From Pseudacidovorax sp. RU35E (lineage in GTDB: Bacteria > Pseudomonadota > Gammaproteobacteria > Burkholderiales > Burkholderiaceae_C): a stretch of DNA of 64,000 bases. The position numbers and the translations under genes are program-made. How positions within the stretch are numbered: position 1 is the stretch's first letter; every line of letters begins with the position of its first letter. The notes beneath the pieces are model-generated. The model worked only from the letters and a program-made list of their open reading frames with translations, was not told where the DNA came from and made no database searches. Location: the NCBI RefSeq assembly GCF_900156165.1, contig NZ_FTMY01000013.1, positions 62,001 to 126,000 of the forward strand, in the 5' to 3' direction. Shown piece by piece: positions 14,787 through 47,803 of the stretch.

Positions 14787-15605
14787 ATGCTCATCCGCAT
14801 CGGCTACGACATCGAACTGGCCCTGACCGGCCCCACGGCCGTGGTCTACCTGCTCCAGGTGCATCCCGATCGTGCCCACGACCTGCTCGCGCCCGAGCAT
14901 CCCGTGGCGGATCCGCCCTTCTGGACCGACCACTACACCGACGGCTTCGGCAACCGGTGCGCGCGCGTGCGGGTGCCGGCCGGCCCCCAGCGCCTGCGCC
15001 TGCACGGCCAGGCCACCATCCACGACAGCGGGCTGCCCGACCCGCAGGACTGGTACGCCATCCAGCACCCGGTGGAGGAACTGCCCACCGATGCCCTGAC
15101 CTTCCTGCTGCCCAGTCGCTACTGCGAGGTCGACAGCGAACTGCTGGCCTTCGCCTGGCGCCAGTTCGGCAACGCGCCCCTGGGCTGGGGACGGGTGCAG
15201 GCCATCTGCGACTGGGTGCACGGGCACATCCGCTTCGATTACGGCTGCGCCAATGCCGGCCGCACCGCCCTGGGCGGCTACCGCGAAGGCGTGGGCGTGT
15301 GCCGCGACTATGCGCACCTGGCCGTGGCGCTGTGCCGGTGCATGAACATCCCGGCGCGCTATGTCACCGGCTACCTGGGCGACATCGGCGTGCCGATCGC
15401 ACCCTACCCCATGGATTTCAGCGCCTGGTTCGAGGTCTACCTGGGCGGACGCTGGCACACCTTCGACGCCCGCCACAACGTGCCGCGCATCGGCCGCGTG
15501 GTGATCGCCCGCGGCCGCGACGCGGCCGATGTGCCGATCACCATGGTGTTCGGCCAGCACCAGCTGAACCGCTTCGATGTGATCACCGAAGAAGTCAGGG
15601 GCTGA
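14787..15605 (+). CDS. Transglutaminase-like (cysteine-protease fold) protein
   Basis: 272 residues. N-terminal beta-rich domain (MLIRIGYDIEL...) then the transglutaminase core: catalytic Cys in GVGVCRDYAHLAVALCRCMN, catalytic His in YLGGRWHTFDARHNVPRIGR with the following Asp. Such bacterial proteins are mostly amidases or proteases rather than cross-linkers; the substrate is not known. No signal peptide is evident, so it is probably cytoplasmic. The frame is open upstream to 14583, but only the ATG at 14787 starts conserved sequence. The last 11 bases overlap the 3' end of ligD on the other strand. Confidence 0.85.
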   Translation: MLIRIGYDIELALTGPTAVVYLLQVHPDRAHDLLAPEHPVADPPFWTDHYTDGFGNRCARVRVPAGPQRLRLHGQATIHDSGLPDPQDWYAIQHPVEELPTDALTFLLPSRYCEVDSELLAFAWRQFGNAPLGWGRVQAICDWVHGHIRFDYGCANAGRTALGGYREGVGVCRDYAHLAVALCRCMNIPARYVTGYLGDIGVPIAPYPMDFSAWFEVYLGGRWHTFDARHNVPRIGRVVIARGRDAADVPITMVFGQHQLNRFDVITEEVRG

Positions 15606-18330: not shown

Positions 18331-19313
18331 GCCGCCTTCCGGCGCGGTGCCGCCTTGCGGGCCGACGCGGATTTGGCGGCGGCCTTCTTGGCTGGCGCCT
18401 TGGCTGCGGGGCGCTTGCCGGCACCGCCCTTGGTTCGCGCCGGGCCGTCGTCCTCGCCCTCGTCCGCCTCTTCGTCTTCATCGTCCTTGGCGGCCGCTCG
18501 GCCCTTGCCGCCTCGCAGGCTGCGCTGCAGCAGTTCGGTCAGGTCCAGGATCTTGGCGCCGGAGCTTGCCTGCTCCTGAGGCTCCAGCTTGGCGACGTCC
18601 TGCGCCTGGCCGGCCTCGGCCTTGCGCTCGACCAGCGCCATGATGCGGTCGCGGAAGCGGTCCTCGTACTCGTCGGCCTTCCATTCGCCCGACATGTCCT
18701 CGATCAGCTGCTCGGCCATCTTCAGCTCGCGGTCGTTGACGCCGGCCTTGCGCGCATCGGCATCGGGCAGCGGCAGGCCTTCCCAGGAGCGGATGTCCGC
18801 GCCCCAGCGCAGCAGGTTGAGCACCAGGCCCGGCCCGGCGGGCACCAGCGCCGCGAGGTGCTCCTTGGTCTGGATCACCACGCGCGCCACGCCGATGCGC
18901 CCGCTGCGCACCAACGCCTCGCGCAGCAGGGCGTAGACCTTGGCGCCGCGCTGGATGGGCGCCGTGTAGTAGGGCCGGTCGAGGTGGATGAAGGGAATGC
19001 CATCGGCCGGCACGAAGCGCTCGATCTCGATGGTCTGCAGCGTGCGCGGGTAGGCGTCGGCGATCTCCTTGTCGGTCAGCACCACGTACTGGCCGTCCTC
19101 CCATTGGACGCCGCGCACGATGTTCTCGCGCGCGATCTCCTTGCCCGTCTTCTTGTTGATGCGCTTGTAGCCCACGTGGTCCATGGAGCGCTTGTCCAGC
19201 CAGTCGAAGTCGATGCTGCCGTCCTGCGTGGCCGAGTAAAGCGCCACCGGGATATGGACGAGGCCGAAGCTGATCGCGCCCTTCCACAGGACGCGCGGGC
19301 TGGATGCGGGCAT
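18327..19313 (-). CDS. ku: NHEJ end-binding protein Ku
   Basis: 328 residues. Ku core at about residues 8-255, starting VLWKGAISFGLVHIPVALYS and including TGKEIARENIVRGVQWEDG and LPLPDADARKAGVNDRELKM. It ends in a tail of about 70 residues, first acidic (DDEDEEADEGEDD), then Lys/Ala/Arg-rich (AKAPAKKAAAKSASARKAAP). Lys-rich Ku tails bind DNA and help threading on ends; the acidic stretch in front is a charged linker. GGAG lies 9 bases ahead of the ATG. Forms an operon with ligD (ATGA overlap). A dyad in the leader is listed separately. Confidence 0.96.
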   Translation of the reverse strand: MPASSPRVLWKGAISFGLVHIPVALYSATQDGSIDFDWLDKRSMDHVGYKRINKKTGKEIARENIVRGVQWEDGQYVVLTDKEIADAYPRTLQTIEIERFVPADGIPFIHLDRPYYTAPIQRGAKVYALLREALVRSGRIGVARVVIQTKEHLAALVPAGPGLVLNLLRWGADIRSWEGLPLPDADARKAGVNDRELKMAEQLIEDMSGEWKADEYEDRFRDRIMALVERKAEAGQAQDVAKLEPQEQASSGAKILDLTELLQRSLRGGKGRAAAKDDEDEEADEGEDDGPARTKGGAGKRPAAKAPAKKAAAKSASARKAAPRRKAA

Positions 19314-35426: not shown

Positions 35427-36332
35427 ATGCTCCACCCGCCGCGCTCCTTCGTCTATCTGGATGCCGTCGCCCGCGCCGGCTCGATCCGCAAGGCGGCGGA
35501 GACCTTGCACGTGGCCTCGACGGCGCTCAACCGCAAGATCCTGGAGATCGAGGCCGAAATCGGCACGCCGCTGTTCGAGCGCCTGCCGCGCGGCGTGCGG
35601 CTGACGGCCGCGGGCGAGGTGCTGCTGACGACCGTGCGCCGCACGCTGGGCGACCTGCGTTCGGCCGCCTCGCAGATCGAGCAACTGCGCGGACTGGTGC
35701 GGGGAACGGTGCGCGTCGGTTGCGCCGAATCGGTGGCCACCGACCTCATGCCGCGCACCATCGCGCTCTACCAGCAGGCGCACCCTGGCGTGCAGTTCCA
35801 GCTGGTGTCGGGCGTGACGGCGCAGCTGCTGCAGCAGCTGATGGCCGACGACGTGGAGATGGTGCTGGTGCACGACCCGCAGCCTTCCGAATCGGTGCGG
35901 GTGATCAGCGCCATCGACCAGCCCCTGTGCGCCATGCTGCGTCCCGACCATCCCCTGGCCGGCCGCGAGAGCCTGCGCCTGGCCGACTGCCAGGAGTTCG
36001 TGGTGGCGCTGGGCGACCGCTCTTTCGGCAGCCGGCGGCTGCTCGACGCGGTGATGGCCCGCTCGCGGCTGCAGCTCAAGGTGGCGCTGGAGGCGAGCAC
36101 GGTGCAGACACTCAAGGAATTCACCCGGCAGACGGGGGCCATCAGCTTCCAGTTCCAGATCGGCACGCTGCGCGAGGCCCGCACCGGCGAGCTGGTGTCG
36201 ATCCCGCTCACCGACCGGTCGCTCACCAGCAGCCAGCTGGTGCTGGCCACGCGCGAGGGGCGGGTACTGCCGATCGCGGCGCTGTCCTTCCAGGAGGCGC
36301 TGGTCAACGCGCTGGCGGCGCTGCCGCCCTGA
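35427..36332 (+). CDS. LysR-family regulator
   Basis: 301 residues. HTH at residues about 5-65 (SFVYLDAVARAGSIRKAAET, LHVASTALNRKILEIEAEIG, TPLFERLPRGVRLTAAGEVL), then the LysR ligand domain from about 90 (RGTVRVGCAESVATDLMPRT, VALGDRSFGSRRLLDAVMAR). Typical length. It is on the same strand as the catabolic cluster that starts 155 bp downstream and may regulate it, although LysR genes more often face their target. An overlapping ATG ten bases earlier is in another frame. Confidence 0.9.
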   Translation: MLHPPRSFVYLDAVARAGSIRKAAETLHVASTALNRKILEIEAEIGTPLFERLPRGVRLTAAGEVLLTTVRRTLGDLRSAASQIEQLRGLVRGTVRVGCAESVATDLMPRTIALYQQAHPGVQFQLVSGVTAQLLQQLMADDVEMVLVHDPQPSESVRVISAIDQPLCAMLRPDHPLAGRESLRLADCQEFVVALGDRSFGSRRLLDAVMARSRLQLKVALEASTVQTLKEFTRQTGAISFQFQIGTLREARTGELVSIPLTDRSLTSSQLVLATREGRVLPIAALSFQEALVNALAALPP

Positions 36333-36392
36333 GTTCCACGGTCTTCCCGGGCCGGCGTGACCCGCCTGGCACGAAAGCCGCTTGCGGCGGAA

Positions 36393-36425
36393 ATTGTGCA
36401 CAATCAAATTCGTGAAGTGCACAAT
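36393..36425. promoter_or_regulatory. Tandem TTGTGCACAA-type operator sites at head of catabolic cluster
   Basis: ATTGTGCACAAT (36393-36404) is a perfect 12-bp palindrome. A second GTGCACAAT (36417-36425) repeats its core exactly 21 bp further, two helical turns, so both sites face the same side of DNA. TTGTGCACAA-like sites are common for FCD-type GntR regulators; one is encoded within this cluster (38695-39405). The sites lie 63-95 bp ahead of the Bug receptor start. Confidence 0.65.
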
Positions 36426-36487
36426 CCAGGTGCAGGCACTTCCCAAGGCGAAGCGCGGCACCCGCCCAACCTTCCGCTGGAGCCGCC

Positions 36488-37534
36488 ATGAACCGTCCTG
36501 TTGTCTCTTCCTCTGCCGCGCGACTGCCGGCCCGATCCACCCGCCGCACCTGGGCCGCCGCCCTGCTCGGCGGGCTGCTGGCCGCGGCCGGGCTGGGCAC
36601 CACCCTGTCCGCCACTGCCGCCGAACCCGCCGCCTGGCCCGAGCGGCCGGTGAAGATCGTGGTGCCCTTCCCGCCCGGTGGCGCGGCCGACGTGTACGCC
36701 CGCCTGGTGGGCCAGAAGCTCGCCGAGGTCACGGGCAACCGGCAGCCCATCGTCATCGACAACAAGCCCGGCGCGGGCGGCATCATCGGCACCGACGTGA
36801 CGGCCAAGTCGCCGGCGGACGGCAGCACCTTCCTGATGGTGACCATCGGCCATGCGGTCAACCCCTTCATGTACGCCAAGCTGCCCTACGACACCCGCGC
36901 CGACTTCGTGCCGGTGGGCGTGGTGGCCGAGGTGCCCAGCGTGATCGTCACCGGCCCGGCGCTCAAGGACAAGTCGCTCAAGGACCTGCTGGCCATGGCC
37001 CGCGCCAAGCCCGATGAGCTGCAGTACGCCTCGTCCGGCGTGGGCACCACCAGCCATGTGGGCGCGGCGCTGATCGAGTCGATGACCGGCGTGCGCATGA
37101 CCCACGTGCCGTACAAGGGCGCCGCCCCCGCGCTGCAGGACGTGATGGCCGACCGCGTGCCGCTGTCGGTGGACATCATCACGTCCTCGCTGCCCCTGGT
37201 GACCAGCGGCAAGCTCAGTGCCGTGGCCGTGACCGGTGCCAAGCGCGCACCCAAGCTGCCCAACGTGCCGACGGTGGCCGAGGCCGGCATCCCGGGTTAC
37301 GAATTCGTCTCCTGGTACATGCTGCTGGCGCCGGCCAAGACGCCCAGGCCGGTGCTGGAGCAGGTGAATGCCGAGCTGCGCAAGGTGGCCGGCCTGCCCG
37401 ACTTCCGCACCCGCATCGAGGACACCGGCGGCCAGGTCATCACGACCACGCTGCCGCAGGCCAACGACTACCTCAACGCCGAGTTCACGCGCTGGGCCAA
37501 GGTCGTCAAGGAACGCAACATCAAAGCAGACTAG
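36488..37534 (+). CDS. Bug/TctC-family solute receptor (catabolic cluster)
   Basis: 348 residues. Long N-terminal region with Arg-Arg (STRRTWAAALLGGLLAAAGL), compatible with a Tat- or Sec-type signal, cleaved near SATAAE. TctC motifs: VKIVVPFPPGGAADVYARLV, IVIDNKPGAGGIIGTDVTAK, MTHVPYKGAAPALQDVMADR and KLPNVPTVAEAGIPGYEFVS. Different from the receptor at 30029 and directly behind the tandem operator, so it is probably the first structural gene of the cluster. GGAG precedes the ATG. No TctAB genes nearby. Followed by repeat copy C. Confidence 0.92.
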   Translation: MNRPVVSSSAARLPARSTRRTWAAALLGGLLAAAGLGTTLSATAAEPAAWPERPVKIVVPFPPGGAADVYARLVGQKLAEVTGNRQPIVIDNKPGAGGIIGTDVTAKSPADGSTFLMVTIGHAVNPFMYAKLPYDTRADFVPVGVVAEVPSVIVTGPALKDKSLKDLLAMARAKPDELQYASSGVGTTSHVGAALIESMTGVRMTHVPYKGAAPALQDVMADRVPLSVDIITSSLPLVTSGKLSAVAVTGAKRAPKLPNVPTVAEAGIPGYEFVSWYMLLAPAKTPRPVLEQVNAELRKVAGLPDFRTRIEDTGGQVITTTLPQANDYLNAEFTRWAKVVKERNIKAD

Positions 37535-37563
37535 AGAACCACCCCGTTGCTTGAGCACCTGGA

Positions 37564-37677
37564 CCACCCCCGTTGCTTGCTCACTTCGTGTAGCCGCATC
37601 CCCCCTCAAGGGGGCGCGCCCCGCGGCCCGTCGAAGCCGGTTCCGCGGGCGCTTCCGCATGGCCTGCTCCGCGGCCG
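37564..37677 (+). repeat. C-rich intergenic repeat, copy C
   Basis: Starts CCACCCCCGTTGCTTGCTCA, contains CCCCCTCAAGGGGG, then a GAAGCCGGTTCCGCGGG stretch and ends CATGGCCTGCTCCGCGGCC. Nearly identical to copy A. It begins 29 bp behind the stop of the Bug receptor gene, in that gene's direction, and so splits the catabolic cluster between its first and second genes. A partial extra GTTGCTTGAGCACC precedes it (37545-37558). Confidence 0.85.
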
Positions 37678-37701
37678 TAGGTTCCTGGGAAATTCACCCG
37701 C

Positions 37702-38631
37702 ATGACACCAACATCCTTCAGCCCCTCCCGCGACTTCATCGGCTACGCCAACCGCCCGCCCGCCGTGGCCTGGCCGGGCGGGGCACGGGTGGCGGTCTCC
37801 TTCGTGCTGAACTTCGAGGAGGGCGCCGAGTTCTCGGTGGCCGATGGCGATGCGCGCAACGAGTCGGTGTACGAGGTGATCGACCCGCGCACCGGCTGGG
37901 ATCCGTGCATCGACAGCCACTTCGAGTACGGCACCCGCGCCGCCTGGTGGCGCATCGCCGAGCTGTTCGACCGCCACCGCGCGCCGATGACCGTCAGCGC
38001 CTGCGGGCGGGCCGTGGCGCGCAGCCCCTGGCTGGCGCAGGACGCAGTCGCCCGCGGGCACGAGGTCGCGGCCCACGGCTGGCGCTGGGAAAGTCACGCC
38101 GGCATGGCGCCCGCGCAGGAGGCCGCGGCCATGGACGCCTGCCTGGCCGCCATCGAGGCCGCCTGCGGCCAGCGGCCGGTGGGCTGGCACACGCGCTCAG
38201 CCTGCACGCCGCATACCCGGGCGCTGCTGGCCGAACGCGGCTTCCTCTACGACAGCGACGCCTACAACGACGACATGCCCTTCTTCGTGCCGGTGGCCGG
38301 CCGGCCGCACCTGGTGCTGCCCTATGCCTTCGACACCAACGACATGCAGTTCCAGCACACGCAGCGCTTCGCCACCGCCGCGCAGTTCGCCGAGTACGTG
38401 TGCGACGCCTTCGACTGGCTGCACGACGAGGGCGCCACGCGGCCGCGCATGATGTCGGTCGGCCTGCACCTGCGCATGATCGGCCGGCCGGCGCGCATGA
38501 AGGCGCTGGCGCTGATCCTCGATCACCTGCGGCGCCGCGGCGGCGCCTGGATCGCCACGCGCGAGCAGATCGCCCGCCACTGGCTGGCCCACGCGCCGGG
38601 GCCGGACGCCGTCAGCACCGCCGCCGGATGA
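37702..38631 (+). CDS. Polysaccharide-deacetylase-fold hydrolase, PuuE/allantoinase type
   Basis: 309 residues. NodB-like barrel: VAVSFVLNFEEGAEFSVADG (the motif with FEEG instead of TFDDG is typical of PuuE-type enzymes), GRAVARSPWLAQDAVARGHE, VAAHGWRWESH with His ligands, VGWHTRSACTPHTRALLAER, SDAYNDDMPFFVPVAGRPHL and VLPYAFDTNDMQF. PuuE-like proteins open cyclic ureides such as allantoin, or deacetylate sugars. In this context (racemase, ring-opening amidohydrolase, amidase) a C-N hydrolase role on a ureide or imide is the better guess. No signal peptide, so cytoplasmic. Confidence 0.85.
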   Translation: MTPTSFSPSRDFIGYANRPPAVAWPGGARVAVSFVLNFEEGAEFSVADGDARNESVYEVIDPRTGWDPCIDSHFEYGTRAAWWRIAELFDRHRAPMTVSACGRAVARSPWLAQDAVARGHEVAAHGWRWESHAGMAPAQEAAAMDACLAAIEAACGQRPVGWHTRSACTPHTRALLAERGFLYDSDAYNDDMPFFVPVAGRPHLVLPYAFDTNDMQFQHTQRFATAAQFAEYVCDAFDWLHDEGATRPRMMSVGLHLRMIGRPARMKALALILDHLRRRGGAWIATREQIARHWLAHAPGPDAVSTAAG

Positions 38632-38694
38632 CGGCTTGCGCCGACAGGGATCGCGCGGATGGGCGACCAGGAACGCTGCGCTAAAGTCGTCCGG

Positions 38695-39405
38695 ATGCAT
38701 CCGACGGAAGAGGCCATCCACCGCACCCTGGCGCAGACGCTGCTGGCCGGGCGTCTCGCGCCCGGCACCCAGCTGGTGGAAACGCGGCTGGCGCAGGTCT
38801 TCGGCGTCTCACGCGAGCGGGTGCGCAAGGTGCTGCACCGCCTGGGCCACGAGCGCCTGCTGGACCTGGTGCCCAACCGCGGCTGCTTCGTCAGCAACCC
38901 GACGCTGGCGCAGGCGCGCGAGATCTACGACGCCCGCCGGATCATCGAAGGCGGCATCGTCGGCAGCCTGGCCGGCACGCTCGCACCCGCGCAACTGGAG
39001 GCGCTGGCCGAACACGAGCGGCGCGAGCATGCCGCCCTGCATGCCGGCGACCGCGCGGCCTCGATCCGCCTGTCGGGCGAATACCACCTGCTGCTGGCCG
39101 AATTCACCGGCAGCCCCTTTGTGGTGCGGCAGTTGCAGGAGCTGGTCAGCCGCACCGCCATGCTGGTGGCCTTCTTCGAGCCGGCCAGCGCCTCGGGCTG
39201 CGGCTGCGAGGAACACGAGGCCATCAGCCTCGCCCTGCGCCGCGGCGACGCGGCAGGTGCGCTCAAGGCCATGCAGGTGCACCTCTCGCTGATCGAGACA
39301 CGCCTCAAGCCTCGGGCCGCGCCCGAGGCCGAGATCGACGCCGAACAGGCCATCGCCGAGGCCTGGGCTGACAGCCAGGGTGCGCTGGCCCCGTCGGCCG
39401 CCTGA
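38695..39405 (+). CDS. GntR-family regulator, FCD type
   Basis: 236 residues from ATG 38695 (an in-frame ATG at 38659 is possible). Winged helix (about residues 3-68: EEAIHRTLAQTLLAGRLAPG, LVETRLAQVFGVSRERVRKV, HERLLDLVPNRGCFV), then an FCD ligand domain with the metal-site residues in EIYDARRIIEGGIVG, HLLLAEFTGSPFV and EEHEAISLALRRGDA (Asp/His set). It sits inside the cluster between the deacetylase and racemase genes and probably represses it through the TTGTGCACAA sites at 36393-36425, releasing on the pathway substrate (inference). Confidence 0.9.
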   Translation: MHPTEEAIHRTLAQTLLAGRLAPGTQLVETRLAQVFGVSRERVRKVLHRLGHERLLDLVPNRGCFVSNPTLAQAREIYDARRIIEGGIVGSLAGTLAPAQLEALAEHERREHAALHAGDRAASIRLSGEYHLLLAEFTGSPFVVRQLQELVSRTAMLVAFFEPASASGCGCEEHEAISLALRRGDAAGALKAMQVHLSLIETRLKPRAAPEAEIDAEQAIAEAWADSQGALAPSAA

Positions 39406-39465
39406 CCCGCGGGCACGGGCGCTGCTTTCACCGACCGGCACCGCCGCCACATCACGGGCCTCGCC

Positions 39466-40164
39466 ATGACCCAGACCGCTCCCGCCCTGCCGCCGCGCCC
39501 CCGGCTTCTGGTGCTCAACCCCAACCGCACCGCCGCCATGACCGACGCGGTGCTGCACGAGCTGCGGCGGCTCACGGCCAGCCAGGTGGAGCTGCGTGGC
39601 TTCACCTGTGAGGACGGGCCGCCGGTGATCGCCACGCGCGAGAGCTTTGCCGCCGGCGCCGCCGCCGCCGCCCGGGCCTGGCCCGCCGTGGACGACGGCT
39701 GGGCCGATGCCGTGCTGCTGTCCTGCTACGGCGACCCCGGCCTGGCGGCGCTGCGCGCGGCCAGCCGCGTCCCGGTGCTGGGCATGGCCGAAGCGAGCAT
39801 GCTGCAGGCGCTGGCCCGCGGGCGGCCCTTCCACATCGTCACGGCGGGCAAGGCCTGGGGACCGATGCTGCATGAGCTCGCCGCGCGCCACACCCGCGCC
39901 TGGCCACTGCTGCAAGGCATCACCACGCTGGACACCACCGGTCTGGCCGGCAGCCAGAACCCGGCGGCCTTCTCGGCGCTGGTGCAGCGGGCCCTGGACG
40001 ACCTGGCTGGCGCGCATCCGGGCGGCGCCGCGCCCGACTGCATGCTGGGCGGGGCCGGCTTCGCGGGCATGCGGCCGACGCTGCGCTATGGCGGGCTGCT
40101 GGAGGACGGATTGCAGGCCGCGCTGGCGCAGTGGCGCGCGCTGCCGATCACGCCGAGCGCCTGA
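39466..40164 (+). CDS. Asp/Glu/hydantoin racemase family protein lacking second Cys
   Basis: 232 residues. Family motifs: LLVLNPNRTAAMTDAVLHEL, LLSCYGDPGLAALRAAS with the first catalytic Cys87, VPVLGMAEASMLQAL, and the C-terminal MLGGAGFAGM where the usual LGCAG Cys is Gly196 (a Cys is found four residues earlier, Cys192). Members racemise hydantoins, allantoin or Asp/Glu using two Cys; one-Cys members may instead be decarboxylases or isomerases. Position among ring-opening hydrolases suggests it works on a ureide or amino acid of the pathway. Confidence 0.82.
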   Translation: MTQTAPALPPRPRLLVLNPNRTAAMTDAVLHELRRLTASQVELRGFTCEDGPPVIATRESFAAGAAAAARAWPAVDDGWADAVLLSCYGDPGLAALRAASRVPVLGMAEASMLQALARGRPFHIVTAGKAWGPMLHELAARHTRAWPLLQGITTLDTTGLAGSQNPAAFSALVQRALDDLAGAHPGGAAPDCMLGGAGFAGMRPTLRYGGLLEDGLQAALAQWRALPITPSA

Positions 40165-40291
40165 TCAGCGGCCCTTGCGGCTGCCGGCGGCCAAATCGAC
40201 CGCACACAATTTGCGCTCACTCCGAGCGAAACAATGCGCTGGAAGTTGGCGCAGCCGCTGCCCATACTGCGGCCATCTTGTGCAGCGCATC

Positions 40292-41527
40292 ATGACTTCC
40301 GCCCCCCTTTCCAGCTCCGCCGACCTGCGCCCGCAACTGGCCGTGCACCGCCTGGGCATGGCCCATCCCGGCGACCTGTCGGCGCTGGCTGCGCTGTTCG
40401 ACGCCGGCACCGTGGCCGCAGACGAGGTGGTCGCGGTCATCGGCAAGACCGAGGGCAATGGCGGCGTGAACGACTTCACCCGCGGCTACTTCACCCAGTC
40501 GCTGATGCATCTGCTGGCCGAGCGCACCGGCCGCCCGGCCGAGGCGATCTGGCGGGAGCTGCCCTGCGTGCTCTCCGGCGGCACCGAAGGCGTGCTGAGC
40601 CCGCACTACGTGGTCTTCTCGCGCCGGACGGCGCCGGTCGATGCGGGAAGCAGCGCCGGCAGCCACGTTGTCGAGCCCGGGGCGCCCATCGGCCCCGGCA
40701 CGGCCGCCGACACCCATGCCCAGGCTCGCCGCGAAGCGGCAGCCCCCGGCGCCCTCGCCATCGGCACCGCTTTCAGCCCGCCGACGCCCGCGCAGGACAT
40801 TGGCCGCTGGACCCACGTCCGCTCGGTCGCCCAGGCCGTGCGCGCCGCCATGGACCAGGCCGGCATCGACCGGCCCGAGGACGTGGCCTTCGTCCAGCTG
40901 AAGTGCCCGTGCGTGACCTCGGCCCGGGCCCAGGCGGCCGCCGCGGCCGGCCACACCGTGCTGACGGCCGACCCGGGCCGCTCCATGGCCTTCGCCCGTG
41001 CGGCAGGCGCCTTCGGTGCGGCCATCGCGCTGGGCGAAATGCCGGACGACCCGGCGCTGGAAGGCGCGCTGCTGCGCGACTTCGACCGCTTCTCGGCCCG
41101 CGCCAGCGTCTCCTCGGGCGTCGAGGTCAGCGCCAACGAGGTGATCGTGCTGGGCCACAGCACCCGCTGGCAGGGCCCGCTGCGCATGGGCTACGCCCCG
41201 ATGCGCGACGCGCTGGACATCACGGCCGTCGGCGAGGCGCTGCGCCCGCTGGGCCTCACGGCCGCGCCGCAGTTGCCCGCCGAGCAGGCGGCGCGCGTGG
41301 CCGCCGTCTTCGTCAAGTGCGAGCCCGACCGCCGCGGCCAGGTGCGCGGCGCCCGCCACACCATGCTGGACGACACCGACATCAATGCCCAGCGCCACAT
41401 CCGTGGCGCCGTGGGTGGGCTGGTGGCGGGCGTGCTGGGCGACGGGCGCCTCTTCGTCTCGGGCGGCGCGGAACATCAGGGCCCCGACGGCGGCGGCCTG
41501 GTGGCGGTGATCGCCGAGGTGGGCTGA
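40292..41527 (+). CDS. Ring-opening amidohydrolase (cyanuric acid hydrolase / barbiturase family)
   Basis: 411 residues. This rare family has three similar domains each giving a Lys-Ser pair. Seen here: AVIGKTEGNGGVNDFTRGYF (Lys52) with LSGGTEGVLSPHY (Ser96); VQLKCPCVTS with ASVSSGVEVSANEVIVLGHS; VFVKCEPDRRGQVRGARHTM with FVSGGAEHQGPDGGGLVAVI. Known members are AtzD/TrzD (cyanuric acid to carboxybiuret) and barbiturase (barbiturate to ureidomalonate). Which substrate fits here cannot be read from sequence. The start at 40292 is the first Met of the conserved frame. The amidase gene follows 6 bp later. Confidence 0.92.
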   Translation: MTSAPLSSSADLRPQLAVHRLGMAHPGDLSALAALFDAGTVAADEVVAVIGKTEGNGGVNDFTRGYFTQSLMHLLAERTGRPAEAIWRELPCVLSGGTEGVLSPHYVVFSRRTAPVDAGSSAGSHVVEPGAPIGPGTAADTHAQARREAAAPGALAIGTAFSPPTPAQDIGRWTHVRSVAQAVRAAMDQAGIDRPEDVAFVQLKCPCVTSARAQAAAAAGHTVLTADPGRSMAFARAAGAFGAAIALGEMPDDPALEGALLRDFDRFSARASVSSGVEVSANEVIVLGHSTRWQGPLRMGYAPMRDALDITAVGEALRPLGLTAAPQLPAEQAARVAAVFVKCEPDRRGQVRGARHTMLDDTDINAQRHIRGAVGGLVAGVLGDGRLFVSGGAEHQGPDGGGLVAVIAEVG

Positions 41528-41533
41528 CACGCC

Positions 41534-42937
41534 ATGAGCCCCACCCTCCCCTGGCAGATGAGCGCCGAGGCCCTGTCGCAGGCCTATGCGCAGCGCACGC
41601 TGTCGCCGGTGGAGGCGCTGCTGTCCGTGCTCAGCCGGGCCGACGCGGTCCACCCCCTCCTCAACGCCCTGGTGGTGCGCGATGACGCCGCCGCCATGGC
41701 TGCCGCCCAGGCCAGCGAAGCGCGCTGGCTGCGCGGCACGCCGCTGTCGCCGCTCGATGGCGTGCCGCTGACCGTCAAGGACAACATCCCCGTGGCCGGC
41801 CTGCCCTGCCGCTGGGGCAGCCGGCTCTTTGCCCATCACCGGCCGGCACGCGACGAAAGCCCGGTCGCGCGTCTGCGCGCGGGCGGCGCCGTGATCCTGG
41901 GCAAGACCAACGTGCCCGAGTTCACGCTGCAGGGCTACACGGACAACCCGCTCTTCGGCCCCACCGGGAATCCGTGGGCGCCGGCGCTCACGCCTGGTGG
42001 CAGCAGCGGCGGTGCGGTGGCGGCGGTGGCGGCCGGCATCGGCCCGCTCGCGCTGGGCACCGACGGCGGCGGCTCGATCCGCCGGCCCTGCGGCTTCACC
42101 GGGCTCCATGGCTTCAAGCCGGGGCGCGGCGTGGCGCCGCGCGCCGACGGGCTGCCGGTGCTGCTGCCAGGGCTGGAAGAAGCCGGCCCCATCGCCCGCA
42201 GCATGGCCGACCTGCTGCTGGCCCTGCGCCTGCTCGCGCCCACGCTGACACCGTTGGCCGAAGTGCCGGGGCCGCTGCGCATCGCCTACTGGCGTGCCAT
42301 CGGCGACAGCCCGGTCGACGCGGCCATCCTGGCGCGCTGCGACGCGGCCGCCGAGCGGCTGCGGGCGCTGGGCCATACGGTGGCCGTGCAGTCCTCGCTG
42401 CCCGAAGTCGAGGCCTTCAACCGCCGCGCCTGGCCGGTCATCGCGAGCACCGGCCTGGCGGCCGTGCTGCACGAGCGCATCGACGGCCATGAAGAAGACG
42501 CGCTCACGCCCGCCATGGCGTCGCTGCTCGCGCAGGGCCGCAGCCAAAGCGCGGTCGACCTGTTCCAGGCCCAGGCGCTGCAGCGCGCGCTGGCGCGGGC
42601 CTTGCAGGGCCTGTTCGCTCAGCACGACCTGCTGCTCACCCCGGCCAGCGCGGCCCTGCCCTGGCCGGCCGACCAGTCCCATCCCACCACCATCGCCGGC
42701 CTGCCGGTGGACGGCCGCGGCCATGCCGTGTTCACCGCCTTCGCCAACGGTGCCGGCCTGCCCGCGCTGGCCGTGCCCGCCGGCCCGACGGAAGACGGCC
42801 TGCCGGTGGGCCTGCAGCTGGTGGCGCCCCGCGGCGGCGATGCGTTGCTGTGCGCCGTCGGCGCGATGTGGGAACGCGAGGCCGCACCCGCCTGGTGCTG
42901 GCCGCCCGCCCTCGACAAGGAAGAACTGCCCTCATGA
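41534..42937 (+). CDS. Amidase-signature hydrolase
   Basis: 467 residues. Amidase signature enzyme with the Lys-Ser-Ser triad: Lys82 in VPLTVKDNIPVAGL, Ser157 in TPGGSSGGAVAAVAAG and Ser181 in LGTDGGGSIRRPCGF. Belongs to the GatA/AtzE-like group of amide hydrolases that cleave biuret-, ureide- or oxalurate-type products. AtzE and HpxY-type amidases work with a small DUF4089 partner (AtzG/HpxX); no such gene is visible here. Six bases behind the ring-opening amidohydrolase gene, suggesting it takes that enzyme's product. The end overlaps the next start (ATGA). Confidence 0.9.
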   Translation: MSPTLPWQMSAEALSQAYAQRTLSPVEALLSVLSRADAVHPLLNALVVRDDAAAMAAAQASEARWLRGTPLSPLDGVPLTVKDNIPVAGLPCRWGSRLFAHHRPARDESPVARLRAGGAVILGKTNVPEFTLQGYTDNPLFGPTGNPWAPALTPGGSSGGAVAAVAAGIGPLALGTDGGGSIRRPCGFTGLHGFKPGRGVAPRADGLPVLLPGLEEAGPIARSMADLLLALRLLAPTLTPLAEVPGPLRIAYWRAIGDSPVDAAILARCDAAAERLRALGHTVAVQSSLPEVEAFNRRAWPVIASTGLAAVLHERIDGHEEDALTPAMASLLAQGRSQSAVDLFQAQALQRALARALQGLFAQHDLLLTPASAALPWPADQSHPTTIAGLPVDGRGHAVFTAFANGAGLPALAVPAGPTEDGLPVGLQLVAPRGGDALLCAVGAMWEREAAPAWCWPPALDKEELPS

Positions 42938-44262
42938 AGATCGTGATCGTGGGCGCCGGCGTGGCCGGTGCCATCCTCGCCCGCCGCCTGGCCCGCCTGC
43001 CCGGCGTCGAACTGCACTGCCTCGAACGCGTGGGCCCCGACGACCATGCCGAAGCCGGCACCGGCCTGAACGTGGGCCCCAACGCCATCAAGGCGCTGCG
43101 CCGGCTCGATGCCGCACTCGCTGCCGAGGTGGAAGCCGCCAGCCTGCCCTGGACCCGCTGGGACATCGCCCTGACCGATGGCACGCCGCTGATGGCGCTG
43201 CCGCTCGCGCAGGTGGCGGACAACCCCGGCATCCGCATCCGCTGGTCGGAGCTGTACCGCGTGCTGCGCCAGGGCGCAGGCCCGGCCATCCGCTACGGCT
43301 GCACGCTCGAATCGGTGGGCGCCAGCGCCACGGCGCCGGGCAAGACCCGCGTGCGCTTCACGCAGGACGGCGCCACGAACGAGATCGACGGCATCGACCT
43401 GCTGGTGGGCACGGACGGCCGCTACTCCCGCGTGCGCGAGACCTTCTCCGGCGCGCCCGAGCCGCGGCACACCGGCGTCGCCATCCTGCGCGTGCTGGTG
43501 CCCGACACCAGCGCCGGGCTGGTGGACGACTACGGCCAGTGGTTCAGCGGCTGCCACCGGCTGCTGGCCTTCCGCGTGCCACCGGACCATGTCTACATCG
43601 CCGCCACCTACCCGGTGGCACCTGGCGCCCCGGTGCAGGACGCCTGGAAGACAGAGGCCGTGATGCGCGCCACCTACCAACCCGCGCAGGGCGAGGCCAG
43701 CCCCGCCGTACGCTGGCTGCTGGACGCCATGTGCGCCCAGCTGCACGACGCCCACTGGGCCCGCATGCAGGAGGCCGACGTGCGCTTCGCCGAGACCGCG
43801 GTGGACGTGCTCTACCTGGGCGACAGCGCCCACGGCATGGCGCCCACGCTGGGCCAGGGCGCGACGCAGGCCATGGAAGACGCCTGCGCCGCCGCGCTGA
43901 TCGTGGAGGACGCCTGGGCCCGCGGCCAGCGCACGCCGCGCGTCTGGCTCGACCGCATCGTGGCCGCGCGCACCGAGCGCCTGCGCTTCGTCATGGACCT
44001 GTCGGTGCGCGCCACCGACACCATGCTCGAAGGCGCCGACCCGGTGGCCGGCACGCGCTGGAAGACCGAGGCGCCCTTCCAGGCCGAGCTGGCGGCGCTG
44101 TTCCGCGACGTGGCGCTGGGCGTGCCGGAGGAAGCCTCGACCAAGGCCCAAGGGCAGTCCGTGAATCCAAGTCCGTTCGGGCTGAGCTTGTCGAAGCCTG
44201 GCGCAAGCCCTTCAGAGCGAACAGGTGATCCGACGGCCATTTGGCCAAGGCCCACGGCCTGA
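42934..44262 (+). CDS. FAD-dependent monooxygenase (HpxO/aromatic hydroxylase type)
   Basis: 442 residues. FAD-binding GxGxxG in IVIVGAGVAGAILARRLARL, the NAD(P)H/FAD motif DG in DLLVGTDGRYSRVRETFSG, and the second FAD motif GD in VLYLGDSAHGMAPTLGQGAT. Class A flavin hydroxylase, as HpxO (urate hydroxylation) or phenolic hydroxylases; no membrane segment. The last ~30 residues (from about PSPFGLSLSKPGASPSERTG) are encoded by a REP-like element and are not part of the family fold. Starts inside the amidase stop. It could oxidise the heterocycle before ring opening; the substrate is not proved. Confidence 0.9.
   Translation: MKIVIVGAGVAGAILARRLARLPGVELHCLERVGPDDHAEAGTGLNVGPNAIKALRRLDAALAAEVEAASLPWTRWDIALTDGTPLMALPLAQVADNPGIRIRWSELYRVLRQGAGPAIRYGCTLESVGASATAPGKTRVRFTQDGATNEIDGIDLLVGTDGRYSRVRETFSGAPEPRHTGVAILRVLVPDTSAGLVDDYGQWFSGCHRLLAFRVPPDHVYIAATYPVAPGAPVQDAWKTEAVMRATYQPAQGEASPAVRWLLDAMCAQLHDAHWARMQEADVRFAETAVDVLYLGDSAHGMAPTLGQGATQAMEDACAAALIVEDAWARGQRTPRVWLDRIVAARTERLRFVMDLSVRATDTMLEGADPVAGTRWKTEAPFQAELAALFRDVALGVPEEASTKAQGQSVNPSPFGLSLSKPGASPSERTGDPTAIWPRPTA
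44173..44225 (+). repeat. REP-like element inside the monooxygenase 3' end
   Basis: Begins CCGTTCGGGCTGAGCTTGTC, then GAAGCC-TGGCGC-AAGCCCTTC and ends GAGCGAACAGG, an imperfect dyad of the same family as 51874-51934. It lies fully within the coding frame of the monooxygenase and supplies its C-terminal residues. Confidence 0.8.
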
Positions 44263-44292
44263 TTCCTGCTCGGCCTTCCCCAGCACCGCCCC

Positions 44293-44829
44293 ATGGACAA
44301 CGCCCTCACCCACGGCCTCTTCCACCTGGCCATCAAGACCGCCGACCTGGCCGCCACGCGCGCCTTCTGGATCGGCACGATCGGCCTGCGCGAAGTGCCC
44401 CGGCCCGACTTCGGCTACCCCGGTGCCTGGCTCGCCTGCGGCCAGCCGGGCGGTCAGGCCATCGTCCACATCTATGCCGGCGGTCCGGCGCTCGGTGGCC
44501 AGGCCCGCGTGCCGCAGGGCACGGCTGCCATCGACCACATCTCACTGGCCTGCAGCGGCTACCACGCCTACATCGCGCGCTTCCGCGCCGCGGGGCTCGC
44601 CTGGCGCGAGTTCCTGGTGCCCGGCACCACGCTGTGGCAGCTCTTCGTGTACGACCCCAGCGGCGTACAGCTGGAACTGACCTTCGAGGGCGCGGTGGAA
44701 GCCGGCACCCCGCCCGACATGTCGCCCGGCCGCGTCTACCGCGCGGGCGAGTCCTTCTTCGACACCGCTTCGTACCCCACCCTTTCCCTGAACACCCCTC
44801 CCGGAGAACCCGCCCATGCTTCGCACTGA
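44293..44829 (+). CDS. VOC-superfamily (glyoxalase/dioxygenase fold) protein
   Basis: 178 residues. Two betaalphabetabetabeta modules with likely metal ligands His in GLFHLAIKTADL, His in AIDHISLACSGY and Glu in GVQLELTFEG, so a metal-dependent lyase, isomerase or dioxygenase. The C-terminal ~40 residues (from about AGTPPDMSPGRVYRAGES) extend beyond the fold. It overlaps the following receptor start by 14 bases. It may act on an open-chain or ring intermediate made by the monooxygenase; the reaction is unknown. Confidence 0.82.
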   Translation: MDNALTHGLFHLAIKTADLAATRAFWIGTIGLREVPRPDFGYPGAWLACGQPGGQAIVHIYAGGPALGGQARVPQGTAAIDHISLACSGYHAYIARFRAAGLAWREFLVPGTTLWQLFVYDPSGVQLELTFEGAVEAGTPPDMSPGRVYRAGESFFDTASYPTLSLNTPPGEPAHASH

Positions 44830-45802
44830 CTTCCTGCGGCTTGCCGCACGCGCCACCGCCGCATTGGCACTGGCCCTGCCCCTCGCGGGCGTCGCCCACG
44901 CGGCCGACAAGATCAAGTTCGGCGTCTTTCCGTCCAGCGCCGCGCTGCCCTTCTACATCGCCCAGAACCGCGGCTGGTTCAAGGAGGCCGGTCTGGAGGT
45001 CGAGGAAGTGCCGATGACCAGCCACCCGCTCACGGTGCAGGCCCTGGTCTCGGCCAGCATCGACGGCGCCGCCAACCTGGTGACGCTGGAAGGCGCCAAC
45101 ATGGAATCGCGCCGGCCCGGCACGCTCAAGTACATCTCGCTCAACGGCCAGAACAGCCAGCACGTGATCGAGCAGTTCGTGGTCAAGGCATCGAGCCCGG
45201 CCAAGTCGCTCAAGGACTTCAAGAACGGCTTCAAGCTCTTCTCGGCGCCCGGCCCGGCCAACATCGGCGCGGCGCGCGCAGTGCTCAAGAAGGTGGGCCT
45301 GGTCGAAGGCAAGGACTTCTCCATCCAGGAGCAGCAGATCGGCGTGCACGTGGGCGCGCTGCAGTCGGGCAACTTCGACGGCGGCTACACGCTGGAGCCC
45401 TCGGCCACCATCATGGTGGCGCAGGGCGTGGGCCGGCGGGTGGAGACTGGCGTGATCGCCACCTACCTGCTGGGCCGCAAGGAAGCCTCGGCCTTCGCTG
45501 CCGGCGCCGTGCTGTCCGACAAGTTCATCGCCGAGCGGCCCGACGTCGCCAAGCGCTTCGCCGCGGTCTGGGCGCGCGGCGTGAAGGCCGCGCAGACCGA
45601 CACCAGCACCCGCGGTTACCTGATCCAGGGCATGAAGGTGCCGCCGGAGCTGGCCGCCACCGTGCCGCTGCCGCGCATCGTGATGACGGGCGACCTGTCG
45701 CCGGCCGACGTGACCGACTTCCAGAAATTCCTGGACATCGGCACCGAGCTGGGCGTGATCAAGGACAAGATCGACGGCAAGGCCGTGGTCAAGGCGCTGT
45801 GA
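44816..45802 (+). CDS. ABC importer receptor, NMT1/THI5-like (SsuA/TauA class)
   Basis: 328 residues. Signal peptide with Ala-rich core, cleaved after AGVAHAA (about residue 29). Mature part starts DKIKFGVFPSSAALPFYIAQ, the NMT1/THI5 fold, with EEVPMTSHPLTVQALVSASI and FDGGYTLEPSATIMVAQGVG. Receptors of this class bind pyrimidine precursors, sulfonates, nitrate or heterocyclic compounds. With the ATPase and permease next to it, it forms a full importer for the cluster's substrate. Its stop overlaps the ATPase start (TGATG). Confidence 0.92.
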   Translation: MLRTDFLRLAARATAALALALPLAGVAHAADKIKFGVFPSSAALPFYIAQNRGWFKEAGLEVEEVPMTSHPLTVQALVSASIDGAANLVTLEGANMESRRPGTLKYISLNGQNSQHVIEQFVVKASSPAKSLKDFKNGFKLFSAPGPANIGAARAVLKKVGLVEGKDFSIQEQQIGVHVGALQSGNFDGGYTLEPSATIMVAQGVGRRVETGVIATYLLGRKEASAFAAGAVLSDKFIAERPDVAKRFAAVWARGVKAAQTDTSTRGYLIQGMKVPPELAATVPLPRIVMTGDLSPADVTDFQKFLDIGTELGVIKDKIDGKAVVKAL

Positions 45803-46644
45803 TGCGGGCCATGGACGTCTCTCCGCCGCGCACCGCGCCTGCCCATGCCACTGCCGCCGAGGCGGCCGCGGGCCACCGCTGGTACGCACCCGGCACGCAC
45901 ATCACCATCCGCGGCCTGACCAAGCGCTTCGGCGACGCGGCGGTGTACGAGAACTTCGACCTCGACATCCCGCACGGCAAGATCACCTCGGTCTTCGGCC
46001 CCAACGGCTGCGGCAAGAGCACGCTGATCAACATGATCGCGGGCATCCTGCCGCACGACGGCGGCCAGATCCTGTTCGAGGGCAAGACGGCGCGCGAGAC
46101 GCGCATCGGCTACGTCTTCCAGAACTACCGCGAGGCGGTGTTCCCGTGGATGCGCGCCATCGACAACATCCGCTACCCGCTGCAGTACCTGGGCCTGTCC
46201 AAAGGCGAGCGAGAGGCGCGCATGGACCGGCTGATGGCCGAGTTCGACGTCAAGCTCGACCTGTCGCGCTACCCGTACCAGATGTCCGGCGGCCAGCAGC
46301 AGCTGGTGTCGATCATGCGGGCGCTGGTGGTGGAGCCGGAGGTGCTGTTCCTGGACGAGCCCTTCTCGGCGCTGGACTACGAGATGGTGATGTTCCTGCG
46401 CGAGCGGCTGCAGAAGGTGCTGGTGGGACGCAAGGTGACGACGCTGCTCGTCTCGCACGACCTGGACGAGGCCGTGCTGCTGGCCGACCATGTGCTGCTG
46501 CTGACCAAGCGGCCCACGCAGGTGGCCGACAACCTGCCCTTCGACGTCCCGCGCCCGCGCACGGCGGCCACCACCGTCTCGCCCGAATTCATCGATGTGA
46601 AGACGCGGGCGCTGGAGATCTTCCAACGCGAGGTGCGCAAATGA
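45802..46644 (+). CDS. ABC importer ATPase (nitrate/sulfonate/taurine class)
   Basis: 280 residues. Walker [15 protein letters not shown]-loop [13 protein letters not shown], signature [15 protein letters not shown], Walker [13 protein letters not shown] and switch His in [11 protein letters not shown]. The first 30 residues are a Pro/Ala-rich extension before the conserved [17 protein letters not shown] three bases earlier is an alternative start. Energises uptake with the receptor before and the permease after it; overlaps both by ATGA/TGATG junctions. Confidence 0.95.
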
Positions 46645-47402
46645 AGACCACGCTCTCGGCCCGCCTGCGGCCGCTGTGGGGCATGGCCCTGATCGTCGCG
46701 CTGTGGGCCTTCGCCCACGCCACCAAGGCGGTGGACCCGGTGCTGCTGCCCTCGCCCGGCGAGGCGCTGCAGGCCTTCTGGAAAGGGCTCTCCGGCGGCA
46801 CGCTGTGGGGCGACTTCGAGAAGACCATCGTGCGCACGCTGGTCTCCTTCGTCATCGCGCTGGCGGTGGCCGTGCCGCTGGGCGTGATCCTGGGGGCCAA
46901 CGAGAAGATCTACGAGGGCATCGAGTTCGCCATCGACTTCTTCCGCTCCACGCCGGCCTCGGCCATGTTCCCGCTCTTCCTGGTGCTGTTCGGCGTGGGC
47001 GAGAAGACCAAGATCGCGGTGGCCGCCTTCGGCGCGGCGCTGGCCATCCTGTTCAACGTGGCCTACGGCGTGATGAGCGCGCGCAAGCAGCGTCAGCTGG
47101 CGGCCCGCGTGATGGGCGCGCCGCGCTGGCGCGTGCTGACCGACGTGACCCTGCTCGAATCCATGCCGCAGGTCTTCGTGGGCATGCGCTCGGGCGTATC
47201 GATCGCGCTGGTGATCGTGATCGTGGCCGAGATGTTCATCGGCTCCACCGACGGCCTGGGCCAGCGCATCATGAATGCCCAGACCATCTTCGACATGCCC
47301 GACATGTACGCTTCGATCTTCGCGGCGGGCCTGCTGGGCTACGTGATGAACCTCATCTTCCTGGTGGCGGAGCGGCGCTTCGTGCACTGGGGCGGAAAGT
47401 AA
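46641..47402 (+). CDS. ABC importer permease (SsuC/TauC class)
   Basis: 253 residues. Six hydrophobic segments from [15 protein letters not shown] to [17 protein letters not shown]. The EAA-type loop contacting the ATPase reads [20 protein letters not shown]. The conserved [20 protein letters not shown] segment is typical of BPD_transp_1 permeases for nitrate, sulfonate or pyrimidine-type substrates. Overlaps the ATPase gene by 4 bases. The DUF3225 gene follows 11 bp later. Confidence 0.94.
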
Positions 47403-47413
47403 GAGACGACCCC

Positions 47414-47803
47414 ATGACTGTGTCCATGAACGAGATCAACCTGCCGGACGTGCTGGACGAGGTGAACGCGGTGTTCGACGAGTACGAGCGCGCCCTGACG
47501 ACCAACGACGTGCCGGTGCTGGACCGGCTGTTCTGGGAGTCCGAGCACACGCTGCGCTACGGCGCCACCGAGAACCTGTACGGCTATGCGGCGATCCAGG
47601 CCTTCCGCCAGGGCCGGCCCGCCAACAACCTGGAGCGCGAGATCACTGCCCGCTCGGTCACCACCTTCGGCCGCGACTTCGCCGTGGCCAACGTGGAGTT
47701 CCGCCGCACCGGCAGCACCCGCATCGGCCGCCAGAGCCAGACCTGGGTGCGCCTGCCCGAGGGCTGGAAGGTGGTGGCGGCCCATGTGAGCCTGATGGGC
47801 TGA
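47414..47803 (+). CDS. DUF3225 protein, AtzH/HpxZ-like
   Basis: 129 residues, SnoaL/NTF2-like cone fold: [75 protein letters not shown] and [20 protein letters not shown]. The family includes HpxZ of the oxalurate genes in Klebsiella and AtzH of Pseudomonas sp. ADP, the latter reported to act on dicarboxyurea in cyanuric acid breakdown. Its presence with the amidase and ring-opening hydrolase strengthens the link to ureide/carboxy-urea chemistry. Last gene of the cluster; 1 bp separates it from the convergent DUF3617 gene. Confidence 0.88.

Follow-up and report, generated by a model that had tools for sequence, protein, structure and literature searches.

Which compound is broken down by a gene cluster that combines a ring-opening amidohydrolase with an importer and several enzymes familiar from separate pathways, and is such a cluster a single operon? 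The question is raised by positions 36393-47803 of the window, a stretch of 64,000 nucleotides from Pseudacidovorax sp. RU35E (contig NZ_FTMY01000013.1). A first-pass annotation had read this region as one composite operon of eleven genes with mostly overlapping junctions. All families that it named are present on the plus strand; we count twelve genes, all on this strand, and overlaps at four of the eleven junctions, the remaining seven being gaps of 6-167 bp. The region is a real finding: it contains a conserved operon with an uncharacterised clade of ring-opening amidohydrolases (ROAs), and its composite character is largely an insertion. We lean towards reading the conserved core as a catabolic operon for a nitrogen-rich cyclic ureide, along a scheme given below in which the substrate is left open. 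The import, flavin hydroxylation, hydrolytic opening and amidase/AtzH-like steps proposed earlier fit a gene set conserved across many genera.

The conserved core operon

The core consists of a LysR-type regulator (35427..36332, plus strand; PF03466, PF00126) and the genes at 40292-47803. Families were assigned with Pfam and NCBIfam models. The plus-strand genes following the regulator encode the ROA (40292..41527; PF09663, 433.8 bits), an amidase-signature hydrolase (41534..42937; PF01425, 308.3 bits), a flavin monooxygenase (FMO) with an HpxO-like fold (42934..44262; PF01494), a VOC/glyoxalase-fold protein (44293..44829; PF00903, 22.2 bits), an NMT1-type substrate-binding protein (SBP; 44816..45802; PF09084, PF13379), the ATPase (45802..46644; PF00005) and permease (46641..47402; PF00528) of an ABC importer, and an AtzH/HpxZ-like protein (47414..47803; DUF3225, PF11533, 201.1 bits; NF033625, 201.8 bits against a cut-off of 135). 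All four overlapping junctions are within the core: amidase/FMO (4 bp), VOC/SBP (14 bp), SBP/ATPase (1 bp, or 4 bp if the ATPase starts at the GTG at 45799 and not at the ATG at 45802) and ATPase/permease (4 bp). The widest gaps are those between Bug and deacetylase (167 bp) and between racemase and ROA (127 bp), both involving genes of the inserted block described below.

Searching the genome collection for six exact peptide patterns taken from the window ROA gave 70 loci; after L092 and L103 were dropped, 68 were counted as having the same ROA type. FMO is present in 64 of these, VOC in 49, the amidase in 45, SBP and ATPase in 42 each, the permease in 39, LysR in 30, AtzH in 22 and a molybdenum hydroxylase large subunit in 19. 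When only the 58 loci flanked by 6 kb or more on each side are considered, the counts are 57 for FMO, 46 for VOC, 43 for the amidase, 40 for SBP and 21 for AtzH. The loci lacking FMO are L056, L057 and two contigs shorter than 5 kb, L084 and L086.

The core recurs in beta-, alpha- and gammaproteobacteria. The closest genomes are other Pseudacidovorax (ROA identity 85-93%); the list also includes Variovorax, Hydrogenophaga, Pseudorhodoferax, Ramlibacter, Noviherbaspirillum, Pigmentiphaga, Parazoarcus and a Pseudomonas, and further genera are Bradyrhizobium, Azorhizobium, Skermanella, Ferrovibrio, Roseomonas, Devosia and Tropicimonas. The synteny that the first-pass annotation had proposed to look for is thus widespread, far beyond chance, but for the core and not for the four-gene block. 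In Variovorax loci L040 and L043 the FMO gene has moved between the permease and ATPase genes, so the content is kept while the order is changed; L040 lacks the amidase. The core gene set is widespread but sparse. An order-wide sample of 300 genomes gave an ROA-type match at 1e-20 in 22 (our genome included), and in four others of this sample FMO adjoins the ROA (L108-L111). No FMO was found beyond our own genome among 398 genomes of a phylum sample at 1e-25, and none on plasmids at E 1e-30.

Some lineages extend the core. A CoxMSL-type molybdenum hydroxylase large subunit lies directly before ROA-FMO-VOC in all ten loci listed, nine from Bradyrhizobium and one from an alphaproteobacterial metagenome-assembled genome (Pfam and NCBIfam were run on representatives), and the same kind of importer is found beside some of them. 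Downstream of the L055 locus is a urate cluster (DUF3830, a deacetylase-family gene, OHCU decarboxylase-HIUase, uricase), and judged by sequence L071 is laid out in the same way. A CoA-transferase and an MmgE/PrpD protein are additional in L109, and L110 and L111 are partly similar by sequence.

The ring-opening amidohydrolase and its partner enzymes

The ROA was aligned with solved cyanuric acid hydrolases (CAHs); known CAHs compared here are AtzD, TrzD and those of A. caulinodans and M. thermoacetica. It retains their three Ser-Lys dyads (K40, S79, K156, S226, K285, S333) as well as R188, R314 and the domain-A Arg; in A. caulinodans the substrate-binding residues are given as R52, R188 and R314 (PMC4051656). 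At the specificity positions 195/321/325/345/346 (AtzD numbering), CAHs are described as R/T/R/G/G and barbiturases as N195, H321, K325, V345 and S/A346 (PMC3758960). The window ROA has R, Q, R, G and G, departing from the CAH signature at 321 and from the barbiturase signature throughout, so it matches neither AtzD nor barbiturase at these positions. The CAH motif SGGxExQGPxGGGP (PMC9118981) agrees with the window sequence SGGAEHQGPDGGGL at 13 of 14 positions, the last Pro being replaced by Leu. Other replacements relative to CAHs are KCPLLT by KCPCVT, GAS by AAG after R188, and KAE by KCE. Barbiturase, known from oxidative pyrimidine metabolism, is of the same family and has the same catalytic dyads, whereas its N/H/K/V/S or A are R/Q/R/G/G in the window protein; identity as a barbiturase was rejected on the signature residues R/Q/R/G in place of N/H/K/V.

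The Gln at 321 is a property of the whole group, being found in every scorable row of the ROA clade. Among 77 FMO-linked rows (row counts include duplicates), 66 are RQRGG, five, all from Roseomonas, are VQRGG, four and one partial are RERGG, and one is a fragment. The RERGG rows are second ROAs of a third type in L065, L076, L080 and L081 (near 15.0-16.1 kb) and in L082 (near 4.8-5.9 kb). The other 39 rows comprise 18 and one partial with the CAH signature, five and one partial RQRGG (a duplicate of the window ROA, L056, L057, L084 and L086; partial, L096), and 14 of other kinds. The Roseomonas proteins (L085, L091, L093, L094, L102) have Val in place of Arg at position 188 (AtzD 195), where a change of the Arg cost a tested CAH thousands-fold activity.

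A maximum-likelihood tree was built from 98 rows. Of these, 70 fall into a single ROA clade (support 100/100), and FMO-linked loci account for 66 of the 70. A fork supported at 94/99 joins this clade to the A. caulinodans CAH group, while TrzD, AtzD and the M. thermoacetica CAH fall elsewhere; the window ROA does not cluster tightly with AtzD, an outcome that the first-pass annotation had named as counting against its reading. Deep forks of the tree are unsettled, and the midpoint root serves for drawing only. The rows of the tree do not include the CAH of B. diazoefficiens (WP_011090016; PMC9118981) or the sequence from Hydrogenophaga sp. PBC (PMC3758960). The simplest reading of the alignment and tree is that the ROA would be a derived branch beside or within CAHs. 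Since it differs from CAHs in two of the defining features tested, the motif and the specificity residues, we do not count it among them; it may still act on cyanurate.

One of the known systems nearest to the core is the atzDGEHF operon of Pseudomonas sp. ADP (plasmid pADP-1). The two share a Toblerone-fold ROA, an amidase-signature enzyme, an AtzH with nine pocket residues and an adjacent LysR gene, which is divergent in pADP-1. In contrast to atzDGEHF, the window core has no AtzG and no AtzF in the operon, its amidase is not AtzE by cut-off, its ROA is only about 38% identical to AtzD and has Q321, and FMO, VOC and the NMT1-type importer are extra. The amidase scores below the cut-offs for both AtzE (184.9 against 425.75 bits) and allophanate hydrolase (159 against 511.05 bits). 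The 6 bp between ROA and amidase leave no room for an AtzG-sized gene, and no AtzF was found within 36393-47803. The reported lack of AtzG and AtzF therefore stands for the locus; it does not extend to the genome (5.7 Mb in 28 contigs), which encodes an allophanate hydrolase on contig C12 (738.2 bits against a cut-off of 511.05), so an AtzF missing from the operon is not missing from the cell. The AtzH-like protein keeps all nine pocket residues described for AtzH (Y22, R46, R63, R66, R73, F94, R96, Q106, Q108; PMC6219798), as do 23 of 23 homologues compared with the reference AtzH of pADP-1. Since AtzH has been proposed as the decarboxylase of 1,3-dicarboxyurea (PMC6219798), the ring-opened product probably carries an N-carboxylate.

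These similarities make a plain cyanurate route the alternative that survives best. In such a route the ROA would be a CAH, the amidase and AtzH would replace AtzEG and AtzH, and FMO and VOC would make cyanurate from an upstream s-triazine. The ROA indeed exceeds the cut-off of the NCBIfam cyanuric acid amidohydrolase model (NF052395, 458.8 against 360 bits), which also counts against the cyclic ureide reading; the Arg, Ser and Lys residues of CAHs are retained together with G345/G346, the AtzH pocket is intact, and the clade joins the A. caulinodans CAH lineage. Yet Thr321 of proven CAHs is replaced by Gln, the motif ends in Leu, AtzG is lacking, and cyanurate hydrolysis alone leaves the linkage to FMO (64 of 68 loci) unexplained. 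We consider this route rather doubtful, and continue with the cyclic ureide reading.

The FMO was modelled with AlphaFold2 (pLDDT 89.2), and the three top Foldseek matches of the model are HpxO structures (3rp8, 3rp7, 3rp6; E 2.7e-25 to 1.1e-24; 20-21% identity). HpxO residues were taken from the PDB alignment, because a family search for a reference HpxO gave none above the cut-off in 143 genomes. Arg204 of HpxO (assigned from the PDB title; chain residue 227, changed in 3rp8) and Tyr216 (chain residue 239), which we take to be an active-site residue, are 12 positions apart. The window FMO has R209 and Y221 at the same spacing, matched to the HpxO pair by motif and spacing only; both are invariant in 45 of 45 sequences (identity 41-97% over 44 relatives). 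Together with the predicted fold, this pair fits hydroxylation of a cyclic ureide. Near its end (44179-44262) the FMO frame crosses a short repeat, GGGCTGAGCTTGTCGAAG, so that the C-terminal tail has low confidence; L036, L037 and L039 carry the repeat at the same place, but L035 and L038 do not.

The VOC protein is highly conserved (identity 62-96% over 30 relatives), and its candidate metal ligands H11, H59, H82 and E128 are invariant in 31 of 31 sequences. Because its model (pLDDT 79.2) has Ni glyoxalase I as the first Foldseek match, it would more probably be an isomerase or lyase than a dioxygenase.

Two further ROAs were noted at other loci. A second paralogue in the same genome (contig C12; L112:9716-10843) is 46-47% identical to the window ROA. 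Its neighbours look like genes for an SDR, an NMT1-type importer, DUF3830 and AllB-like amidohydrolases, and a Skermanella plasmid (L106) is annotated with a similar layout. In a Burkholderiales locus (L114:5257-14663), an ROA whose signature is that of barbiturase (N, H, K, V) adjoins a related ABC importer, hydantoinase A and B genes and a CoA-ligase-family gene that is FdrA-like by eye.

The Pseudacidovorax block and its regulation

Between LysR and the ROA, the window has a block of four plus-strand genes: a Bug/TctC-type receptor (36488..37534; PF03401, 212.1 bits), a PuuE-like polysaccharide-deacetylase-family protein (37702..38631), a GntR/FCD regulator (38659..39405; PF07729, PF00392) and an Asp/Glu/hydantoin racemase family protein (39466..40164; PF01177, 106.6 bits). 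The block is found at this place in the window and in all five Pseudacidovorax loci. The racemase occurs in no other of the 68 loci, and relatives of the other block genes occur singly on some of these (totals: deacetylase in 8, FCD in 7 and Bug in 14, the five Pseudacidovorax included).

Of the 68 loci, 30 have a LysR relative upstream of the ROA on the plus strand; for 23 of them, 110-431 bp separate the end of the LysR match from the ROA match. The distance is greater in the other seven: 3.9-4.2 kb in the five Pseudacidovorax loci, 2.4 kb in Pseudorhodoferax L042, which also has a gene on the opposite strand, and 8.5 kb in Pigmentiphaga L049, which has molybdenum hydroxylase genes. The region directly before the window ROA (40202..40291, plus strand; GCACACAATTTGCGCTC...GAGCGAAACAATGCGCTGG) is 74-88% identical over 91-111 bp to the same region in seven Variovorax loci. 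Of 33 loci tested, 22 match it at E below 1e-4 and eight more weakly, and three from Bradyrhizobium show no match. Because the region matches loci of other genera, the promoter of the ROA operon appears to have been retained when the block entered; it is probably the LysR target. A separate site precedes Bug: AATTGTGCACAATC, followed 21 bp further by TGCACAAT (36392..36425), both retained in all five Pseudacidovorax loci. AATTGTGCACAAT was not found on the given strand of L040-L104. The pair AATTGTGCACAATC/TGCACAAT is an operator-like candidate for the block, to which a regulator would presumably bind. Judged from the DNA, block and core look like two transcription units, and the block looks like a separate, lineage-specific one.

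This arrangement does not favour the original proposal that all twelve genes, including deacetylase, racemase and Bug, serve one substrate as a single operon. The genes are contiguous and on the same strand, and contig C17 of the same genome groups a deacetylase, a racemase and an amidase, so that the pair belongs to some ureide-type breakdown. However, 63 of the 68 loci lack the whole block, an operator-like site of its own precedes it, and the ROA promoter region is common to loci without it. A single operon is therefore unlikely, and we return to the core and the block as two units.

The block is perhaps devoted to a hydantoin- or allantoin-like compound. The deacetylase has PDB relatives 1z7a, 3s6o and PuuE (3cl6) and shares the fold family of PuuE allantoinase, but it scores below the PuuE cut-off (TIGR03212, 316.5 against 424.6 bits), and a PuuE above it (494.5 bits) is encoded elsewhere in the genome. 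The racemase shares its fold family with allantoin racemase and is weakly similar to hydantoin and allantoin racemases (3qvj, 5lfd); its relatives were found in 17 other genomes of 300, with identity of 37-44%. None of the ten regions around such relatives that we examined (L139-L148) contains the whole block. Partial pairings include a weak deacetylase-family gene in the cluster (L139), an adjacent Bug (L142, L143) and a nearby amidase (L140), and in L147:7711-9324 genes for OHCU decarboxylase and HIUase come immediately after the racemase relative, which suggests that this branch may be allantoin-racemase-like. On contig C17 (L136:7317-12017), same-strand amidohydrolase, PuuE-like deacetylase, racemase and amidase genes are paralogous to parts of the block. 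Taken together, these racemase neighbours and the C17 set fit a ureide- or allantoin-like role.

Base composition does not support a recent foreign origin of the block: its genes have a GC content of 0.70-0.76 and a third-position GC content of 0.90-0.95, against 0.68-0.76 and 0.89-0.97 in the core. Elsewhere in the window, at 15595-19313, adjacent genes for a three-domain LigD and Ku form a non-homologous end-joining pair.

Proposed pathway and alternatives

The cyclic ureide scheme starts from what is directly supported, namely the gene content and its conservation, the catalytic residues, the distinct ROA clade and the promoter. The substrate would be imported by the NMT1-type ABC importer, and the HpxO-like FMO would hydroxylate an electron-rich ring carbon. 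The VOC protein may then catalyse a metal-dependent rearrangement as an isomerase or lyase, after which the Ser-Lys ROA would open the ring by hydrolysis to a product with an N-carboxylate. The amidase would take off a terminal amide and AtzH would decarboxylate the product, leaving an allophanate- or urea-type compound that could enter general nitrogen metabolism through the allophanate hydrolase of contig C12 or urea metabolism. In Bradyrhizobium a molybdenum hydroxylase step would be added in front. We infer every one of these reactions, their order and the substrate.

Several observations weigh against this scheme. AtzH is missing in 46 and VOC in 19 of the 68 loci, so their steps are not obligatory, and contig ends account for only part of this, as VOC and AtzH reach just 46 and 21 even among the 58 well-flanked loci. 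The counts describe near relatives and not the whole family, because the search used six exact peptides of the window ROA. The best match of our genome to the Bradyrhizobium molybdenum hydroxylase large subunit is only 37-38% identical, so that step is lineage-specific. The FMO is about 20% identical to HpxO and far below its family cut-off (NF033623, 82.6 against 500 bits), although HpxO urate hydroxylase is the closest fold and has the same Arg/Tyr spacing. A sequence search placed 6-hydroxynicotinate 3-monooxygenase (NicC) on top; in Foldseek NicC is close behind HpxO, and it too has an Arg...Tyr pair, at a different spacing.

The NicC matches would agree with a pyridine-type route, in which a hydroxypyridine tautomerising to a cyclic imide would be the substrate of the FMO, with the ROA then opening the hydroxylated ring, and genes for nicotinamidase, aspartate dehydrogenase or NAPRTase are indeed found beside some Bradyrhizobium loci. 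Such neighbours are few and may be housekeeping, the retained carbonyl-binding Arg residues favour a 1,3,5-trione-like ring, and the nearest fold remains HpxO, making this route quite unlikely. A literature search on an isonicotinate or citrazinate route gave nothing usable.

We judge an oxidative pyrimidine route distinctly improbable. Here uracil- or barbiturate-type rings would be oxidised by the molybdenum hydroxylase and FMO, the ROA would be a barbiturase variant and the amidase a ureidomalonase. The molybdenum hydroxylase preceding the ROA in Bradyrhizobium and the related importer of the barbiturase-signature ROA in L114 agree with it, but N195/H321/K325/V345 are replaced by R/Q/R/G in the window ROA, and ureidomalonate cleavage would presumably need no AtzH. 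The literature search found no paper on a barbiturate or pyrimidine monooxygenase.

The boldest possibility, and a highly improbable one, is that the operon would be a natural route whose enzymes turn a ureide of purine origin, such as urate, allantoin or a related compound, into a cyanurate-like 1,3,5-trione ring. The FMO would hydroxylate the ureide, VOC (with the molybdenum hydroxylase in Bradyrhizobium) would rearrange and oxidise it to the ring that the ROA would open, and the amidase and AtzH would complete it as in cyanurate breakdown. This possibility is raised by the resemblance of the FMO to HpxO and of the ROA pocket to that of CAHs, by AtzH, and by the statement that cyanuric acid can arise when uric acid is oxidised chemically (PMC7948467). 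Nothing on point was found on oxonate-to-cyanurate conversion or allantoxanate among the literature matches listed. Chemistry leading from allantoin to oxonate also belongs to the background of this idea, and the literature searched gave nothing on it.

Breakdown of lumichrome or riboflavin was rejected, as the route outlined in PMC12746152 uses a P450, a xanthine oxidase-type enzyme and a Rieske enzyme, unlike this set.

We did not find the core operon described in the literature searched, among the matches listed, and the term "ring-opening amidohydrolase" did not occur among them. Proteins with the cyanuric acid hydrolase/barbiturase fold form a family that is both small and isolated. Cyanuric acid was reported in Paramecium secretions in 2025 (PMC12342508). 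Gln321 provides a marker for proteins that would be labelled as cyanuric acid hydrolases by the NCBIfam model. The large ROA clade, with its links to a flavin hydroxylase, a dedicated importer and a VOC protein of high conservation, gives a concrete starting point in the search for a natural role, and the core offers a short list of genes for assay. If the route from purine-derived ureides to a trione ring were true, it would give a natural role to the cyanuric acid hydrolase family, for which none is known so far.

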